A stretch of 35,748 nucleotides of DNA from Acidimicrobiia bacterium (GTDB lineage: Bacteria > Actinomycetota > Acidimicrobiia > Acidimicrobiales > Aldehydirespiratoraceae), in NCBI GenBank assembly GCA_024421085.1, contig JAHQYN010000025.1, positions 1 to 35,748 on the forward strand, given 5' to 3'. The notes beneath the pieces are model-generated. The model had not been told where the DNA came from, searched no databases, and saw nothing but the letters and a program-made list of their open reading frames with translations. Position 1 is the first letter of the stretch. Each line of letters starts with the position of its first letter. Below are positions 10,409 to 34,432 of the stretch, piece after piece. Both the position numbers and the translations under genes were made by a program.

Positions 10409-10534
10409 ACACAACCGCGCCAACACAACCGCGCCAACACAACCGCGCCAACACAACCGCGCCAACACAACCGCGCCAACACAACCGCGCCAACACAACC
10501 GCGCCAACACAACCGCGCCAACACAACCGCGCCG
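10409..10534. repeat. 14-bp tandem repeat, 9 copies
   Basis: Nine back-to-back copies of ACACAACCGCGCCA; the last has one change. It lies in the 218-bp gap between the desaturase 3' end (10579) and the DUF192 start (10360), in the likely promoter region of DUF192-rsmI. The unit is not a multiple of 3 and codes for nothing recognisable. Near-identity of the copies implies recent expansion. Confidence 0.95.
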
Positions 10535-10578
10535 ACACCCGAATCCACCAGGCCGCCCGCTGCGGTGCTCAGCGGTGA

Positions 10579-11517
10579 TCAGACCCCGACGGGCTGGCGC
10601 TGCGACGCAGCAGCCAAGCGTTCCTCGCGACGCGCAGCGACGCGACGGCCGACCTTGCCGACCCGGCCGATATAGCGGATCAAGCGCTCACGCGCCTGCT
10701 CGGCTTCGGCGCTGAGCCCCTCCAGATCGGCGACTCCCCATTCGCGCATGACCACCGGCTGCAGGATCTGATCGTGGTGGATCGCCAGGTCGTAGATGCC
10801 CGCGTCGGCGATGGCCTTGGCGTGTGCGTTGAATTCCGGGATGCCCACACCCGGCATGGCGAAGCTGGTTGCCTGCTTCTCGGTTGCTATCACCGCGGCG
10901 GAGGGATCCAACTCGAACACTGCACTCATTGCGTCGCGGTAGAAGAGGAAGTGAAGGTTCTCATCGGCGGCGACCCGGCGCATCACCGCACGGCCCGCAG
11001 GGTCGTCGATCCTAGAACCCGTGTTGAAGTGCGAGATCCGTGTGGCCAACTCTTGAAGCGCAACGTAGGCGAGGCCCTCGGCCGCGTTGGGGGGCTCGGG
11101 GACGACACCGGCTTGAACCTGGGCCATTCGCGCCCGTTCCAGCCATACCGGGTCGACTGAGCGGGTCGCCAACAGGTAGGCGTTGATCACGAATCCGTGG
11201 CGGCCCTCTTCGGCGGTCCAGCGGCGGACCCATTCGCCCCAGGCACCGTCGCGGCCGAACATCCGCTCAATGTCGCGGAAATAGTAGGGCAGGTTGTCCT
11301 CGGTCAACACGTTGACGAACAGGGCGCTGCGCACGGCCGGGTCGAGGTTTGCCTCCGCGGGCGACCATTCGTAGTGGTCCTCGAACTCTGCGGCGCGGCC
11401 CCAAGGAACCAGGGTATGCGGAAACCACTCCTTGGTTGTCGACAAGTGACGATCGAGTAACCGTTCCGCGGTTGATTCAAGTGCTTCCAGCACCGGTTTG
11501 TCAGCAGCGATGACCAT
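10579..11517 (-). CDS. Acyl-ACP desaturase (class IV, DesA-like)
   Basis: 312 aa. Soluble diiron enzyme introducing a double bond into acyl chains carried on ACP (or CoA), using O2 and ferredoxin. Metal-ligand helices: NVLTEDNLPYYFRDIE, WTAEEGRHG (the EExxH-type pair) and the second pair ADENLHFLFYRD; AYVALQELATRISHFN is the intermediate helix. The length fits mycobacterial DesA1/DesA2-type proteins. The start is ATG 11517, 8 bases after a perfect palindrome (11526-11551). The upstream gene ychF is on the same strand with a 42-bp gap, so co-transcription depends on whether that palindrome terminates. Confidence 0.9.
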   Translation of the reverse strand: MVIAADKPVLEALESTAERLLDRHLSTTKEWFPHTLVPWGRAAEFEDHYEWSPAEANLDPAVRSALFVNVLTEDNLPYYFRDIERMFGRDGAWGEWVRRWTAEEGRHGFVINAYLLATRSVDPVWLERARMAQVQAGVVPEPPNAAEGLAYVALQELATRISHFNTGSRIDDPAGRAVMRRVAADENLHFLFYRDAMSAVFELDPSAAVIATEKQATSFAMPGVGIPEFNAHAKAIADAGIYDLAIHHDQILQPVVMREWGVADLEGLSAEAEQARERLIRYIGRVGKVGRRVAARREERLAAASQRQPVGV

Positions 11518-15464: not shown

Positions 15465-17150
15465 ATGAGTCCCACCTTCGCCGATCTCGGCGTACCCGAA
15501 CCAATTGTCGCGGTTCTGCGCCGGGGTGGCGTTACCTCCCCCTTTGAGATCCAGACCGCCACAATTCCCGACCTGCTCAGGGGCCACGACGTCGTGGGCC
15601 GCGCCCCTACCGGCTCCGGCAAGACTCTTGCGTTCGGGATTCCGGTGCTGACGCGGGTGCCCCGGGCCGAGCCGGGCCTCCCGAGCGCATTGGTCCTCGC
15701 TCCCACTCGTGAACTCGCCGAGCAGATCGCCACCGAACTCGGCCCGCCGGCCGAGGCGGTTAGTCGTCGTATCTCGGCGGTCTACGGCGGTGTCGGCATA
15801 GAGCCTCAGATCAAGAGGATGCGGCGCGGGGTCGATGTGCTCGTGGCAACGCCGGGGCGTCTCGAGGATCTCATTGAACGCCGGGTCGTTGACCTGCGCA
15901 GGGCCGCGACGGTGGTGATCGACGAGGCCGATCGCATGGCCGACATGGGCTTCATGCCCGCTGTGCGACGCATCCTCGACGGCACTGCGAACAAGCGGCA
16001 CACGATCCTGTTCTCGGCCACCCTCGCAGGCGATGTCGGCAAGCTGATCGATCAGTACCAGTCCGACCCCGTACACCACGGCGTGGGATCGCCGACACCG
16101 GACCTGACGGCTGCCCAGCATCATTTCTGGGAAATTCCCCGGCCCGACCGGATCAGCCTGTGTGCCTCGGTCATCGCCACCCTCGGCTCGACGATCGTCT
16201 TCACCCGCACCCGCCACGGTGCTGACCGTGCCGCCCGCCAACTCAATCGAGTGGGGATCCCTGCGGCCGCCATCCACGGCAACCGCTCGCAGGCACAGCG
16301 TTCCCGGGCTCTTCGTGATTTTGCCTCGGGCAAGGCCCTCACCCTGGTCGCCACCGATGTGGCAGCCCGTGGTATTCATGTCGACGGTGTCGAGTGCGTG
16401 GTGCATTACGACCCCGTCGATGAGGACTCTGCCTACATTCACCGTTCGGGTCGAACGGCACGAGCCGGCGCAGAGGGTCAGGTGGTCTCGTTCGTGGACC
16501 CGTCCCAGGTCCGGGTGGTCAGAGCGATGCAACGGAGATTGAACCTCTCGCCGGAGATTACGGCACCACCCCCTATGGACGGCCCGGCCGTGACTGTCCC
16601 CGATGACCACTCCAACCCGAGGCAACACTCCAAACCCGAACCTTCCGGACGCCACGCGTCCGACGGTGCCGGCACACGGCGCAAGAGCACTGCCCGTCGC
16701 GGCCAACAACAGAGTCGCGGCCAACGCCAAGACCAAGACCGAAACCAAGACCGCGGAAAACGCCAAGACCGCGGAAAACGCCAAGACCAACAGCAAAGTC
16801 GCGGCCAACGTCAACAACAAGACCAAAGTCAAGGACGCAGCCAGAGTCAAGGGCGCGGCCCGAGTCGAGACCAAAACCAAGGCCAGGGCCAGGGCCAAGG
16901 CCAGGGCCAAAGCCAGAGTCGCGGACGAGGACAAGGCCAAAGTCAAAGTCGCGGACGAGGACAAGGGCAAGGCCAAAGTCAAAGTCGCGGACAAGGCCAA
17001 GGTCAAAGTCGCGGACGAGGGCAAGGCCAAGGGCGCGGCCGGTATCAAGGCCAAAGTCAAGGCCGCGGCCAGCGTCAAGGCCAAGCGCAACGACGGGGCC
17101 AAGGTCAAAGTCGCGGCCAACGGCAAGGCCAAGGGCAGCGACGCCGCTAG
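15465..17150 (+). CDS. DEAD-box ATP-dependent RNA helicase with Arg/Gly/Gln-rich tail
   Basis: 561 aa. Helicase core about residues 1-370: Q-motif (FEIQTATIPDLL), motif I APTGSGKT, Ia PTRELAEQ, Ib TPGRLEDL, II DEADRMADMGF, III SATLAGDV, IV TIVFTRTRHGADR, V VATDVAARGIHV, VI HRSGRTARAG. It unwinds short RNA duplexes during ribosome assembly or decay. From about residue 400 the tail is almost entirely R, G, Q, S with some K/D, built from short DNA repeats (about 16690-17145). Such RGG-like tails bind RNA and can drive condensate formation. The same DNA is also open in another plus frame and on the minus strand, a by-product of the repeats. Confidence 0.92.
   Translation: MSPTFADLGVPEPIVAVLRRGGVTSPFEIQTATIPDLLRGHDVVGRAPTGSGKTLAFGIPVLTRVPRAEPGLPSALVLAPTRELAEQIATELGPPAEAVSRRISAVYGGVGIEPQIKRMRRGVDVLVATPGRLEDLIERRVVDLRRAATVVIDEADRMADMGFMPAVRRILDGTANKRHTILFSATLAGDVGKLIDQYQSDPVHHGVGSPTPDLTAAQHHFWEIPRPDRISLCASVIATLGSTIVFTRTRHGADRAARQLNRVGIPAAAIHGNRSQAQRSRALRDFASGKALTLVATDVAARGIHVDGVECVVHYDPVDEDSAYIHRSGRTARAGAEGQVVSFVDPSQVRVVRAMQRRLNLSPEITAPPPMDGPAVTVPDDHSNPRQHSKPEPSGRHASDGAGTRRKSTARRGQQQSRGQRQDQDRNQDRGKRQDRGKRQDQQQSRGQRQQQDQSQGRSQSQGRGPSRDQNQGQGQGQGQGQSQSRGRGQGQSQSRGRGQGQGQSQSRGQGQGQSRGRGQGQGRGRYQGQSQGRGQRQGQAQRRGQGQSRGQRQGQGQRRR
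16690..17145. repeat. Degenerate short tandem repeats encoding the helicase RGQ tail
   Basis: Recurrent words include GGCCAAAGTCAAAGTCGCGG and GGCCAAGG, with a hexamer-based periodicity. All units keep the helicase frame open. Imperfect copies suggest older or selected expansion. Confidence 0.8.
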
Positions 17151-17239
17151 GCGGTCACGAGAATCTGAACGGGCAGGTTCGGGACTTCTCCGTGGAACTC
17201 GTAGTACATGGTCAAGCCGTTGACTTCGATGAACGGCAT
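17147..17239 (-). pseudogene. N-terminal fragment of an alpha/beta hydrolase
   Basis: An ATG at 17239 opens a 30-codon frame, MPFIEVNGLTMYYEFHGE followed by VPNLPVQILVTA and a TAG. The first 18 residues are the familiar start of alpha/beta-hydrolase-fold enzymes; the HGG oxyanion region that should follow is missing. I read this as debris of a lost gene between the convergent helicase and cinA genes. The rest of the gap to 17443 shows no recognisable gene. Confidence 0.4.
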
Positions 17240-24728: not shown

Positions 24729-26390
24729 TCAGCCCTCGCGGACTATCGGCACGATCATGGGGCGGCGGCGGGTCCGTTCCGCGACGATGCCGCCCGCAGA
24801 TCGGCGCACGATCTGCGACAGACGGGCCAGGTCAGCAACCCTGTCGTCCAACGCCTTCATGACCGCTGCCTCGACCGTGTCGACCACAGCGGTCTCGTGC
24901 GCGCCTAGCGCAGGGTGCTCGACCCAGCCGCGTGACACCACGTCAGGCCCGGCCAACAACTCGCACCGTTCAGTGTCGACATGCACGATCACCGCGACAA
25001 AGCCGTCGGCGCCGAGGACCCGGCGGTCGCCGAGCACCTCGTTGCCGAGGTCGCCGACCGTGCCGTCGACATACAGGTGGTCCCCGCCGACCGATCCGAG
25101 GTGCTCCAGACCCGTGTCTGACAGTTCCAGCTGGTCCCCGTCCTCGGCCACAACCACATGATCACGGTCCATCCCCATCTCCAGAGCCAGATCGCGATGC
25201 GCCACAAGATGGGCGTACTCTCCATGCACCGGCACGAAGAACTCGGGGACCGCGACCGAATGGAGAGTCCCGAGTTCCTGCTGCTTGCCGTGCCCGCTGG
25301 TGTGCACATCGACGATCCCGCTGTGGACCACCCGCGCTCCGAGGCGGGCGAGACCGTTGCGGACCGCCGCCACCGCGGTCTCGTTTCCGGGGATCGGGTG
25401 TGAGGAGAAGACGACCGTGTCGTTGTCGCCGAGCTTCAGCCAACGGCTCTCGCCGCGGGCCATCTGGGTGAGCGCCGCTCGGGGCTCTCCCTGGGATCCT
25501 GTGCAGACGATGCACAGGCGTCGGGGGTCGATGTCGCCGACCTCCTCGACGTCTCTGAGTGCGTGGTCCGGGATGCGCAGAATCCCCACCTTCCGGGCGA
25601 GCTTGATGTTGCGCCGCATGGAGAGACCGACGGGCACGACGATCCTGTCGGTCATCAGCGCAGCGTCGGCCACCTGCTGCAGCCGGTGGATGTGGCTGGC
25701 GAACGAAGCGACTATCACGCGACGCTGATCGTTGGCGCGCAGCAGCGCAGTGAGGACACCGCCGATCTCCTTCTCTGAGCGGGACGCGCCGGGGCTGTCG
25801 GCGTTGGTCGAGTCCGCGAGCATCAGTCGGATGCCCGGATCATGGGCCAGCGCGCCGATCCTCGACAGGTCGGTGCGGCGGCCGTCGATGGGCGTCAGGT
25901 CCAACTTGAAGTCGCTTGAGTGAAGAATCACGCCCTGGTCGGTGTGGAACGCGGTGATGTTGCCCGATGGGATCGAGTGGGTGACGGGCAGGAACTCGCA
26001 GTCGAAGGGGCCGATCTTGCGGCGGTCACCGTCGCTGATCGGGTGCAGCACGGCCCTCCCGTTCAAGCCTGCCTCGCGCAGCTTGTGCTCGATCATGCCG
26101 AGGGTGAAGACCGACCCGTAGACGGGCAGCGACATGTGCCGCAGGAGGTAAGGGAGCGCGCCTATGTGGTCTTCGTGGGCGTGGGTGGCGATCACCGCCT
26201 CGACCCGGTCGGCGTTGTGGATCAGCCAGTCGAGGTCGGGCAGGACCGCGTCCACTCCGGGCAGGTCGTCGCCGGCGAACATCTGGCCGCAGTCGAGCAC
26301 CACGACCCGGCCCTTCGTCTCGATGGCCGCGCAGTTGCGACCGATCTCGCCCAGGCCACCGAGGAAGGTGATGATTACCGGTTCTGGCAT
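24729..26390 (-). CDS. rnj: Ribonuclease J
   Basis: 553 aa, normal length. Metallo-beta-lactamase/beta-CASP nuclease with endo- and 5'-3' exonuclease activity in RNA decay and maturation. N-terminal FLGGLGEIGRNC; metal motif ATHAHEDHIGALPYLL; THSIPSG; HSSDFKLDLTP; beta-CASP part VIVASFASHIHRLQQV; CTGSQGEPRAALTQMA; HTSGHGKQQEL and FFVPVHGEYAHLVAH. The C-terminal domain follows from about residue 450. The ATG overlaps the end of the repeat ORF by 16 bases and shares the nonamer CTTGACATG with the dapA stop region. Confidence 0.96.
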   Translation of the reverse strand: MPEPVIITFLGGLGEIGRNCAAIETKGRVVVLDCGQMFAGDDLPGVDAVLPDLDWLIHNADRVEAVIATHAHEDHIGALPYLLRHMSLPVYGSVFTLGMIEHKLREAGLNGRAVLHPISDGDRRKIGPFDCEFLPVTHSIPSGNITAFHTDQGVILHSSDFKLDLTPIDGRRTDLSRIGALAHDPGIRLMLADSTNADSPGASRSEKEIGGVLTALLRANDQRRVIVASFASHIHRLQQVADAALMTDRIVVPVGLSMRRNIKLARKVGILRIPDHALRDVEEVGDIDPRRLCIVCTGSQGEPRAALTQMARGESRWLKLGDNDTVVFSSHPIPGNETAVAAVRNGLARLGARVVHSGIVDVHTSGHGKQQELGTLHSVAVPEFFVPVHGEYAHLVAHRDLALEMGMDRDHVVVAEDGDQLELSDTGLEHLGSVGGDHLYVDGTVGDLGNEVLGDRRVLGADGFVAVIVHVDTERCELLAGPDVVSRGWVEHPALGAHETAVVDTVEAAVMKALDDRVADLARLSQIVRRSAGGIVAERTRRRPMIVPIVREG

Positions 26391-26974
26391 GTCAAGTCCA
26401 GGGTGAGGCCGGGTCGCGCCGCAGTGACACCGGATCGGGCCGCAGTGACACCGGATCGCGCCGCGGTCAAACCGGATCGGGCCGCAGTGACACCGGATCG
26501 CGCCGCGGTCAAACCGAGTCCCGCGTCCGTGAGAACGGGGCTAGCCGCAGTGACACCGGATCGCGCCGCGGCCAAACCGAGTCCCGCGTCCGTGAGAACG
26601 GGGCCAGCCGCAGTGACACCGGATCGCGCCGCAGCCAAACCGAGTCCCGCGTCCGTGAGAACGGGGCCAGCCGCAGTGACACCGGACCGCGCCCCAGGGA
26701 CCCCGCACCCGGCCGCAGTCACCCCGGATCGCGCCGCGGCCAAACCGAGTCCCGCGTCCGTGAGAACGGGGCCAGCCGCAGTGACACCGGATCGCGCCGC
26801 AGTGACACCGGATCCGGACGCAGTGACACCGGATCGGGCCGCGGCCAAACCGAGTCCCGCGTCCGTGAGAACGGGGCCAGCCGCAGTGACACCGGATCGC
26901 GCCGCGGTCAAACCGAGTCGCGCCGCGGTGAGACCGGGTCCGGCCGGGGTGAGAACGGGTCGGGTCGGGTCCAT
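26375..26974 (-). CDS. Candidate heptapeptide-repeat protein between dapA and rnj
   Basis: 199 codons. ATG 26974 comes one base after the dapA TGA, and the stop falls 16 bases inside rnj. Almost the whole product is a seven-residue repeat (SGVTAAR, with LGLAAAR, PVLTDAG variants), encoded by 27 DNA units of 21 bp. There is no Cys-rich, membrane or catalytic motif and no homology I recognise. Coupled positions at both ends and the absence of stops would allow translation. Against a real gene: the repeat unit itself has no stop in several frames, and the flanking 9-bp duplication suggests inserted or expanded non-genic DNA. Confidence 0.35.
   Translation of the reverse strand: MDPTRPVLTPAGPGLTAARLGLTAARSGVTAAGPVLTDAGLGLAAARSGVTASGSGVTAARSGVTAAGPVLTDAGLGLAAARSGVTAAGCGVPGARSGVTAAGPVLTDAGLGLAAARSGVTAAGPVLTDAGLGLAAARSGVTAASPVLTDAGLGLTAARSGVTAARSGLTAARSGVTAARSGVTAARPGLTLDLTCQNR
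26403..26969. repeat. 21-bp minisatellite, 27 contiguous units, with a 63-bp higher-order repeat
   Basis: Basic unit GTGACACCGGATCGCGCCGC plus A or G. Units 6-7, 9-10, 12-13, 17-18 and 22-23 are a diverged pair beginning with G(T/C)CAAACCGAG and GTGAGAACGGGG. With a basic unit they make a 63-bp higher-order unit, present five times. Every unit is exactly 21 bp. The array is bounded by the direct repeat CATGTCAAG at 26388-26396 and 26972-26980. Confidence 0.97.
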
Positions 26975-26975
26975 G

Positions 26976-27866
26976 TCAAGACCGACCGAGCGCAGCCAGG
27001 ACCGCTTCGGCGGACTGTTGGAGGCCCTCGGGCTCGGGGCCCATCGGCGGACGGGTCGGGCCTGCTGGCAGGCCCATGACGCGCAGCATCGCCTTGGCCG
27101 GCACGGGGTTGGGGGACTCATCGCCCGTCTCGAACTCATAGGACGGGATCAGGCGACGGTTGATCTCAGCCGCCGCCTGCACGTCGCCCGCAAAGAACGC
27201 CTCGAGCATCTGCGACGTCTCGACGCCGACCCAGTGGGTGGCCACGCCGATGGTGCCGACCGCGCCGACCGCCAGCAACGGCAGGGTGAGCCCGTCGTCG
27301 CCGCTGTAGACCTCCGTGCCTGGCGGCGACAGTGTCAGCAGCCTTGCCGTCTCCGCGGGGTTGGCGGCGGCATCCTTCACGCCGATGATATTGGGCACCG
27401 TGTTGAACAGTTCCGCCATCGTCTCCGTAGCGATCTTGCGACCGGTGCGAGCGGGAATGTCATACAGCAGGATCGGCAGGTCGGTGGCTTGGGCGCAGGC
27501 ACGGAAGTGTTCGCTCAATCCTGTTTGACTGGGACGGTTGTAGTACCCCGCCACATGCAGCAGCCCTGCGGCGCCGGCCTCGGTGGCGCGTCGGCTCAAC
27601 TCCACCGCGGCGTCGGTGTCGTTGCTTCCCGCGCCGGCAACGACAGGCTTGTCGACAGCCTCCACCACCGCCGCTGTCAGATCGATCTGCTCGTCGTGGG
27701 TGAGCGTCGGGCTCTCTCCGGTGGTGCCAGCGATGACCAGACCGTCGCTGCCGCCCTCGGTGGTCAGGTGGCGGGCCAGCTTCTGTGCGCCTTCAAGATC
27801 GAGCGATCCGTCGGAACCGAACGGCGTGACCATGGCGGTCAGTACCCTGCCAAAGCGTGCTTGCAT
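26976..27866 (-). CDS. dapA: 4-hydroxy-tetrahydrodipicolinate synthase
   Basis: 296 aa from ATG 27866 (MQARFGRVLTAMVTPF); the longer frame adds 20 unrelated residues. Class I aldolase condensing pyruvate with aspartate semialdehyde, the first committed step to diaminopimelate and lysine. Motifs: VIAGTTGESPTLTHDEQ, the proton-relay YYNRPSQTG, the substrate Arg in LLYDIPARTG, the Schiff-base Lys in IIGVKDAA, and YSGDDGLTLPLLAVG. The TGA at 26978-26976 is followed by C and the ATG of the repeat ORF. Ancestrally it may have been joined directly to rnj in the same way. Confidence 0.95.
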   Translation of the reverse strand: MQARFGRVLTAMVTPFGSDGSLDLEGAQKLARHLTTEGGSDGLVIAGTTGESPTLTHDEQIDLTAAVVEAVDKPVVAGAGSNDTDAAVELSRRATEAGAAGLLHVAGYYNRPSQTGLSEHFRACAQATDLPILLYDIPARTGRKIATETMAELFNTVPNIIGVKDAAANPAETARLLTLSPPGTEVYSGDDGLTLPLLAVGAVGTIGVATHWVGVETSQMLEAFFAGDVQAAAEINRRLIPSYEFETGDESPNPVPAKAMLRVMGLPAGPTRPPMGPEPEGLQQSAEAVLAALGRS

Positions 27867-27983: not shown

Positions 27984-29211
27984 GGGTCTCGGGCCGGGGC
28001 TCTGGCCGCGACTCGCGACGGCGCCTTCTGAGGATCAAGCCGTAGACGACAACGGCCCCGGCCGAGAAGAAGAACCACTGGAACGCATATGACAGGTGCG
28101 GTCCGTCGTCGAGGCTCACTCGGGGCACCGGGACCGGCAGCGAAGTGCCCGCAGAGGTACTCCCAGCAGTGATCGCAGAGGTACTCCCAGCAGTGATCGC
28201 AGAGGTACTCCCAGCAGTGATCGCAGCGGTGTTCGCAGAGGTACTCGCAGCAGTGTTCGCAGCAGTGTTCGCAGAGGCATTCGCAGAGGCACTCGCAGAG
28301 GCACTCGCAGAGGCACTCGCAGCGGTGTTCGCATGTTGTGGCGGGTGCTGCTGCGCCAGTTGCACCCAGAGGTCCGCAACCTCGAGGCCGGTCAGTTCAG
28401 CGACCCGGGCGAGGTCGAGTCGATTCAATTCAGTCAGCACCGCGATCTCGTTGGTGGCGATACTTCCGCCGCCGACGCTGCTGAAGACCCTGCCGGTGAC
28501 TGTCACCTCACCGGCGGGCGCGCTGAGATCGTCGCTTTGCACCCCCGCCGCCCAGAGCCTGGGAACCCAGCCGCGACTGACCACAACGACAGTGCCGTCC
28601 GCCAGTTCAAGGGGCGTGACGAGCCAGTTGCCCGGCTCGGTCTCATAGGTGCGGTTGGCGACCAGGAACGAATGCTCTTCAAGGTACGTGCCGGTTGCGG
28701 CGGTTGAGGTGTGGTCCAGAGGTGTGGTCGGCGACGCCAGCAGCGTTGCGATCTCCTGCGGCTCCGCCTCGAGCGCAGCCCTGATCTCGCTGTTCTGATC
28801 CCGCCGTTCCTCGAGGCGTCGCAGCTGCCAGAACCCCAGGTTGACCATGACTACGACCATCGTCAGCACGAACAGGTGCGACAGTATCCAGCGAAACGAC
28901 AACATCGGGCGCGCCGACGACACCGCCGTCTCGATCAGCTCGACAGGCTCCGTTGGCACAGGGGGCTCCGTCGACACAGGGGGCTCCGTCAACACAGGGG
29001 GCTCCCTCGGCACAGGGGGCTCCGTCGGCACAGGGGGCACCGTCGGCACAGGGGGCTCCGTCGGCACAGGGGGCTCCGTCGGCACAGGGGGCACCGTTGA
29101 CAGCGACGGCTCCGTTGGCACAGGGGGCACCGTCGGCACAGGGGGCACCGTCGGCACAGGGGGCTCCGTTGACAGCGACGGCTCCGTCGGCTCAGAGTTC
29201 GAGGATGGCAT
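27979..29211 (-). CDS. SURF1 family protein with two tandem-repeat expansions
   Basis: Up to 410 aa. The SURF1 domain starts around residue 105: membrane helix (FVLTMVVVMVNLGFWQLRRLEERR), GTYLEEHSFLVANR, PGNWLVTPLELADGTVVVVSRGWVP, a C-terminal HLSYAFQWFFFSAGAVVVYGLIL helix and an Arg-rich tail. SURF1 assists cytochrome c oxidase assembly. The first 90 residues are PPVPTE-type repeats (18-bp DNA unit). A second repeat (12-bp unit) puts about 60 residues of S/A/T/N between VQLAQQHPPQH and the last helix, on the extracytoplasmic side. ATG 29211 overlaps dapB by 20 bases; an internal ATG at 28905 would skip the first array. Confidence 0.85.
   Translation of the reverse strand: MPSSNSEPTEPSLSTEPPVPTVPPVPTVPPVPTEPSLSTVPPVPTEPPVPTEPPVPTVPPVPTEPPVPREPPVLTEPPVSTEPPVPTEPVELIETAVSSARPMLSFRWILSHLFVLTMVVVMVNLGFWQLRRLEERRDQNSEIRAALEAEPQEIATLLASPTTPLDHTSTAATGTYLEEHSFLVANRTYETEPGNWLVTPLELADGTVVVVSRGWVPRLWAAGVQSDDLSAPAGEVTVTGRVFSSVGGGSIATNEIAVLTELNRLDLARVAELTGLEVADLWVQLAQQHPPQHANTAASASASASASASANASANTAANTAASTSANTAAITAGSTSAITAGSTSAITAGSTSAGTSLPVPVPRVSLDDGPHLSYAFQWFFFSAGAVVVYGLILRRRRRESRPEPRPETR
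28151..28330. repeat. 12/24-bp in-frame minisatellite inside surf1, 15 units of 12 bp
   Basis: Three identical 24-bp copies (28151-28222), then nine 12-bp variants such as GCAGAGGCACTC and GCAGCAGTGTTC. They encode AITAGSTS, ANTA and ASAS peptides in the periplasmic-side domain. Confidence 0.93.
28952..29185. repeat. 18-bp in-frame minisatellite at the surf1 5' end, 13 units
   Basis: The unit is GTCGGCACAGGGGGCTCC with variants, including two GTTGACAGCGACGGCTCC units. On the minus strand it encodes EPPVPT, VPPVPT and EPSLST. The array starts 6 bases beyond the dapB stop. Confidence 0.93.
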
Positions 29212-34154: not shown

Positions 34155-34244
34155 CCACCGGGCCAGGAACCACCGGGCCAGGAACCACCGGGCCAGGGAC
34201 CACCGGGCCAGGGACCACCGGGCCAGGGACCACCGGGCCAGGGA
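34155..34244. repeat. 15-bp tandem repeat, 6 copies, upstream of rpsO
   Basis: The unit is CCACCGGGCCAGGGA (first two copies end in GAA). On the minus strand it encodes VVPGP repeats in a 77-codon open frame (34129-34362) that I do not accept as a gene. The rest of the 34081-34432 gap shows nothing recognisable. Confidence 0.93.
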
Positions 34245-34432
34245 CCACCGTCGGCTGGCCGTCCCGAGACCCGACTCGGACCTGCTGTGACCCGCCAGCG
34301 GCTAGGAGACTCCCAACTGGATAGACCTTTCCCGGTACGTCCGGGTCTTGGCTGTTGTGCATCGCCTGTGTTCTGGTTCCGGTACCGATCCGGTCTCCTC
34401 TCGAGCCGTCATTCTCCGATGGTTCGATCCCT

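Follow-up and report, generated by a model that had tools for sequence, protein, structure and literature searches.

A 21-bp minisatellite inside a duplicated stop-start junction between dapA and rnj in an uncultured member of the Acidimicrobiales, and stop-start ladders in its family

In bacterial termination-reinitiation the travel of ribosomes after a stop codon, their recycling and the efficiency per hand-over are matters of dispute. For native gene pairs of Escherichia coli and Haloferax, gaps of ~20 nt nearly abolish termination-reinitiation, and 15 nt of the upstream gene are enough for it (PMC10666635). Repeats that sit at such junctions are known from mycobacteria, where the MIRU elements carry a small ORF, are apparently mobile and insert at start codons (Supply et al. 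1997, summarised in PMC12548453). According to this summary the MIRU ORF and the gene that follows are coupled via a 4-nt overlap, the copy number is variable and the elements were proposed to be tolerated since they hardly disturb the expression of the following gene (PMC12548453). In the account of PMC2734929 they form one family of 40–100 bp scattered over 41 sites. The same source presents the rnc-fpg VNTR of Mycobacterium tuberculosis (ETR-F, VNTR3239), a junction of a few base pairs which grew to about 280–360 bp of repeats in one clade (PMC2734929).

The locus described here belongs to a stretch of 35,748 nucleotides, called the window in the following, from an uncultured marine bacterium. 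This stretch corresponds to contig 52 of the draft genome G000 (3.55 Mb), the one genome of its species that was examined and, by RNase J identity, one of the Acidimicrobiales MAGs. The genus, a group of uncultured Acidimicrobiales, is apparently mostly sponge-associated; three genus-mates have bin names (SB0670_bin_1, RHO3_bin_4 and COS4_bin_1) that presumably point to sponge metagenomes. Between dapA and rnj, two genes whose assignment was borne out by Pfam (DHDPS and RNase J), a tandem array is located (Table 1), which the first-pass annotation of this DNA had described as 27 units of 21 bp bounded on both sides by CTTGACATG. Both the coordinates and the unit count were confirmed: 575 bp, i.e. 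27 x 21 + 8 with zero indels, separate the two copies of CTTGACATG, the distance between the copies is 584 bp, and Tandem Repeats Finder (TRF) detects the array independently. The nonamers indeed hold the dapA stop plus an ATG at one end and the rnj ATG at the other, and translation reproduces the proposed frame of 199 codons (ORF199). Its ATG lies one base after the dapA stop, as dapA ends at 26976 with TGA-C-ATG, and its 3′ end overlaps rnj (ATG at 26390) by 16 nt.

Table 1 Features of the dapA-rnj junction in the window
Feature	Position	Strand	Evidence
dapA (dihydrodipicolinate synthase), upstream gene	26976..27866	(-)	Pfam DHDPS 2.8e-78
First CTTGACATG: dapA stop TGA, C, ATG of ORF199	26972..26980	(-)	sequence
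Tandem array, 27 x 21 bp + 8, 63-bp higher-order repeats	26397..26971	(-)	TRF, lag identities, unit list
ORF199, open frame of heptapeptide repeats	26375..26974	(-)	translation
Second CTTGACATG: holds rnj ATG; TGA out of frame with ORF199	26388..26396	(-)	sequence
rnj (ribonuclease J), downstream gene	24729..26390	(-)	Pfam RNase_J_b_CASP 1.7e-44 + RNase_J_C

Among the 27 units 18 distinct types are found, and the units degenerate toward the dapA end. The self-identity of the array is higher at lag 63 (0.762) than at lag 21 (0.675), with 0.23–0.34 at the other lags from 15 to 29, so that the array has a 63-bp higher-order repeat (SGVTAAGPVLTDAGLGLAAAR). Array copy numbers in this study come mostly from draft genomes, in which short-read assembly may misjudge arrays; since the 27 units are divergent, a collapse of the dapA-rnj array in the assembly is unlikely. 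The heptapeptide SGVTAAR, given earlier as the repeat of the encoded protein, is present but is just one among several heptads, which also comprise TAARSGV, TAAGPVL and TDAGLGL (example peptides are SGVTAAR and GPVLTDAGLGLAAAR). Three of the six frames of the array (73% GC) are without stop, and the openness of ORF199 is therefore unsurprising and weak evidence.

The comparison of the junction in close relatives, which had been proposed as a check, was done with five genus-mates (G001 to G005) and further family members and shows a tight dapA-rnj junction throughout. No array is present at any other dapA-rnj junction read, the five genus-mates included, and the array is therefore lineage-specific. 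In all other genomes read the two genes are separated by no more than about 35 bp, often by 1–5 bp, and the same upper limit holds for a second collection of 27 loci with both genes, some of them from the same genomes. In the nearest relative, G005 (93% RNase J identity), the array-free junction (TCTTGACATGGACTTGGCTCGAACCTGACATGCC) contains TGACATG twice, 22 bp apart, in the layout TGA-C-ATG GACTTGGCTCGAACC TGA-C-ATG. TGACATG also occurs twice in G004, 16 bp apart and with one 16-bp copy, three times in G001 with two 16-bp copies, and in G003 twice plus a broken one, with one 16-bp copy plus a broken copy. A single junction without duplicate is found in G002 and in all other genera. The duplication in the genus-mates thus consists of TGA-N-ATG with mostly a 16-bp step, a step by which every mini-ORF ends at the following stop; the enclosed mini-ORFs read MGRS* and MDLART*, and the start of ORF199 (ATG-GAC) is the same start as that of MDLART* in G005.

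Because array-free genus-mates already hold these TGA-N-ATG duplicates, 16–22 bp apart, the nonamers are not a footprint of the arrival of the array, and the earlier reconstruction, in which a single TGA-C-ATG junction was split and duplicated at this event, is not supported. Judged from the junction sequences, the order is a stop-start duplication in an ancestor common to most members of the genus, followed by growth of the 21-bp array in one lineage. A search for the seed of the array in the spacer of the relatives gave local alignments no better than those with random genome segments. Furthermore, the array DNA has no match elsewhere in its own genome or in 20 relatives, and 19-mers of the array, searched at 3 mismatches, gave scattered matches near the control count.

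TRF arrays cover 4.6% of 351 kb sampled from the window genome (in total, 0.89 Mb were sampled from G000, 0.62 Mb from G005 and smaller amounts from the others). Those of the window lie between genes and in frame inside genes, such as an FtsK-like gene and, at both ends, a SURF1-like gene (names by inspection). Several of the arrays that were placeable in G005 are long in the window and short or missing in the counterpart, with lengths of 95 versus 20, 184 versus 4, 250 versus 61 and 96 versus 0 bp; a few arrays are longer in G005 than in the window genome. Lineage-specific growth of this kind is seen in many arrays, that between dapA and rnj among them. Like bacterial minisatellites and VNTRs, the dapA-rnj array has higher-order units and a species-specific length and belongs to a genome-wide set of in-frame genic and intergenic arrays, and it shows the difference in unit number or presence among related genomes by which such loci are recognised (575 bp here, none in the genus-mates). 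Unlike bacterial minisatellites in general, it lies within a stop-start signal that was duplicated beforehand, and an uninterrupted open path still leads from gene to gene.

The periods of arrays inside genes are multiples of 3 in 156 of 161 cases, as expected under selection on reading frames. A similar mod-3 rule for arrays between codirectional genes was considered and rejected, as a seemingly strong excess (57, 5 and 31) shrank to 37, 13 and 24 once every intergenic region contributed a single count. On the same counting, the period mod 3 differs weakly between codirectional arrays and convergent plus divergent ones (pooled p = 0.056), and a general rule is therefore not claimed. Repeats that span a stop codon were found at 11 of 202 codirectional ends in G000 versus 1.2% inside genes; this enrichment at codirectional ends is absent in G005 (1 of 253), and stop-spanning duplications occur there at 6 of 118 convergent ends.

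Several further arrays of the window genome may be mentioned. The SURF1-like gene carries its arrays at 28150-28333 and 28946-29195 (24-bp and 18-bp units), arrays which the nearest relative has in a much shorter form or hardly at all. An intergenic array at 10409-10538 consists of 9.3 nearly perfect 14-bp units (ACACAACCGCGCCA), and 6.4 nearly perfect 15-bp units at 34155-34250 are missing in the nearest relative. Outside the window, several intergenic arrays share a 61-bp period (L091, L095, L147, L181, L184 and L185); a common family behind them was ruled out, as they have no sequence similarity.

Several codirectional junctions carry repeats whose unit is formed by the overlapping stop and start. 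These stop-start ladders have an exact step of 17 bp, and each unit is a 6-codon mini-ORF with a 4-nt overlap (RTGA) with the next. The pattern of four RTGA at an exact 17-bp step gave 64 matches, compared with 8 matches of the reversed pattern (Fisher p 0.004 on matches and 0.03 on loci); the 64 matches fall on 33 distinct loci, which belong to 17 of the 51 genomes of the family. RTGA at a 16-bp step yielded 2 matches versus 4 reversed, and at a 23-bp step 9 matches versus about the same number in the control; since there is no enrichment at 23 bp, the effect is confined to the 17-bp step and does not reflect a general mod-3 rule. The flanking ORFs were analysed for the 18 of the 33 loci that have flanking DNA, loci which were chosen by the pattern, against a background of random positions and not of other intergenic repeats. 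An ORF of at least 120 codons ends in or next to 14 of these 18 distinct ladders (background 12%, p 2e-10), and in 9 of 18 such an upstream ORF is combined with a downstream ORF of this size starting in the ladder (background 6%, p 3e-7). The flanking stops are often situated in the first RTGA and the starts often on the last RTG.

A ladder between the genes of an ABC permease and its ATPase in the window genome (contig 15, L088:2541-2606) is composed of four 17-bp units (GTGATCTGGGCGACACT); every unit forms a 6-codon ORF, the TGA of which overlaps with the GTG of the following unit. In the corresponding chain G005 and G004 have five small ORFs each, G001 has two, G003 a single one and G002 none, so that the number of mini-ORFs in this ladder ranges from 0 to 5 across the six species compared in the genus, and all hand-overs on the way from the permease to the ATPase are overlaps of 4 nt. 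At the junction of an LLM-type oxidoreductase and a phosphotransferase, five small ORFs are found in G000, three in G005 and none in G001 and G004, and a locus on contig 5 has three 6-codon units in G000 and two in G005; both chains are unbroken in the window genome and in G005, not in every relative. The mini-ORF chains at these other junctions differ in copy number among species and are nearly all linked by 4-nt overlaps. Besides the permease-ATPase ladder, 17-bp-step ladders of the ATGA and GTGA type lie between codirectional genes of the window genome at L157:14836-14963 and L078:2660-2761 and are shorter or absent in relatives, and RTGA x4 at exact 17-bp spacing was also noted in other genera of the family (L223-L242), at many sites exactly between two long ORFs.

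The junction repeats of this family and the MIRUs, as the latter are portrayed in the sources cited above, are alike in their placement at stop-start junctions, in the small-ORF layout and in the supposed tolerance. Unlike the MIRUs, each junction here has its own 16–22 bp unit, made from its own stop-start sequence where traceable; as far as such tracing goes, ladders and MIRUs are alike in layout and differ in origin, the former being locally derived. The dapA-rnj array shares with the MIRU type the codirectional genes at a stop-start junction and an ORF that overlaps or abuts the flanking genes (ORF199, and the mini-ORFs MGRS* and MDLART* in relatives), but not the dispersal of one sequence family over many loci, since its 21-bp unit occurs nowhere else in the genome. 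The rnc-fpg VNTR resembles it in having repeats between neighbouring genes whose junction is short in many relatives; it differs in that the repeats begin 40 bp after the upstream stop, and a stop-free coupled frame does not figure in what PMC2734929 says of the locus. Nor is the array itself a ladder, whose unit holds the overlapping stop and start: the 21-bp unit is without stop-start, and only the older 16–22 bp TGA-N-ATG duplication around the array has both. In literature on stop-start tandem repeats, bacterial minisatellites and repeats of sponge Acidimicrobiales no description of such ladders was found, which is weak evidence as subscription papers were mostly outside the scope of the search. 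It is conceivable, though somewhat doubtful, that the family uses or at least tolerates ladders of 4–6-codon cistrons, at which a ribosome would terminate and restart serially before it reaches the next gene, that the number of rungs could set the expression ratio of the genes, and that the dapA-rnj junction is ladder-like with one rung grown to 199 codons.

A newborn repeat protein, functional in its own right and one of two ideas of the first-pass annotation, would agree with an indel-free frame of 199 codons starting one base after dapA. However, ORF199 does not look gene-like and is probably not a new gene. Its per-codon log-odds, based on the codon usage of the window genome, is -0.047 and lies outside the range of the called genes (2nd percentile +0.071, median 0.193), which come from a home-made simple codon-usage caller with uncertain start sites. 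The changes between units comprise 16 synonymous and 29 non-synonymous ones in the ORF199 frame and 22 and 23, respectively, in another minus-strand frame; the other frame being more synonymous, no frame-specific constraint is visible. The gene-like codon usage and the synonymous bias of a protein-coding gene are thus both lacking. In addition, no Pfam family was found at the cut-off (the best match, Clp_N, is just below), the structure prediction that had been suggested gave no fold (AlphaFold pLDDT 40.7), and no relative read has a homologous gene at the junction, so that a new protein is very improbable. The identical nonamers at both ends of the array also invite the idea of a mobile insertion with a 9-bp target-site duplication. 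Such a duplication is made by the insertion, whereas TGACATG is duplicated here already in relatives without the array; together with the absence of any other array copy in the genome and of a recognisable gene within it, this leaves an insertion barely credible. The same holds for a structured RNA or regulatory leader of rnj: the transcript is predicted to be very stable (-321 kcal/mol), yet its z value versus dinucleotide shuffles is only -0.75, no Rfam family is found at the array, and the array is absent from relatives.

A plain neutral minisatellite, tolerated without any coupling role while rnj starts independently, is an explanation that we regard as unlikely. In its favour, arrays abound in this genome and also occur within genes and between convergent ones, the units are without frame constraint, and the stop-spanning duplications at convergent ends in G005 show that such repeats are not confined to codirectional junctions. 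On the other hand, the short dapA-rnj distance in all other genomes read, the spacer, in which no promoter-like or terminator-like site was found, and the RTGA ladders elsewhere, which are placed precisely between gene ends and starts, argue against it. The probable explanation, in our opinion, is growth of a minisatellite inside a translated spacer which possibly still passes ribosomes to rnj; the translation of ORF199 and the coupling are what we infer from this arrangement. Of the two ideas of the first-pass annotation, the translated spacer is the better one.

According to this translated-spacer model, the ancestral state would have been a tandemly duplicated stop-start spacer with one or two mini-ORFs of 4–6 codons between dapA and rnj. 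In a mini-ORF of the window lineage the 21-bp minisatellite would then have expanded to 27 copies via slippage or unequal recombination, as for the arrays across the genome. Since 21 is divisible by 3 and no stop occurs in this frame of the unit, the mini-ORF would have been lengthened to 199 codons and not closed. Ribosomes leaving dapA could restart at the ATG one base later, translate the array and terminate 13 nt beyond the rnj start, with the possibility of another restart there; a path from dapA via ORF199 to rnj thus exists on paper. As 584 mod 3 is 2, the second TGA is out of frame, so that rnj has lost its original TGA-C-ATG hand-over, which is replaced by an overlap of 16 nt. Because gaps of ~20 nt nearly abolish reinitiation in the gene pairs mentioned above, an untranslated gap of 585 bp would be expected to uncouple rnj, while a translated one need not do so.

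The dapA-rnj array points to a wider habit of the family, namely chains of tiny frames between neighbouring genes along which ribosomes may keep passing on. Ladders and array show one way in which repeats grow inside operons with a continuous open path kept, and orthologous junctions of related species, with their natural chains of nearly identical mini-cistrons (0 to 5 in number), offer a ready series in which the loss per hand-over could be measured.

Two other features of the window were noted. At 11141-11208, on the opposite strand of the gene at 10579-11517, the Rfam family ASdes, a mycobacterial antisense sRNA family, was matched with 45.6 bits, a match which may merely reflect conserved coding sequence. 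A lysine-rich repeat gene is located at 16666-17223, and the matching stretch is ~1 kb longer in the nearest relative.
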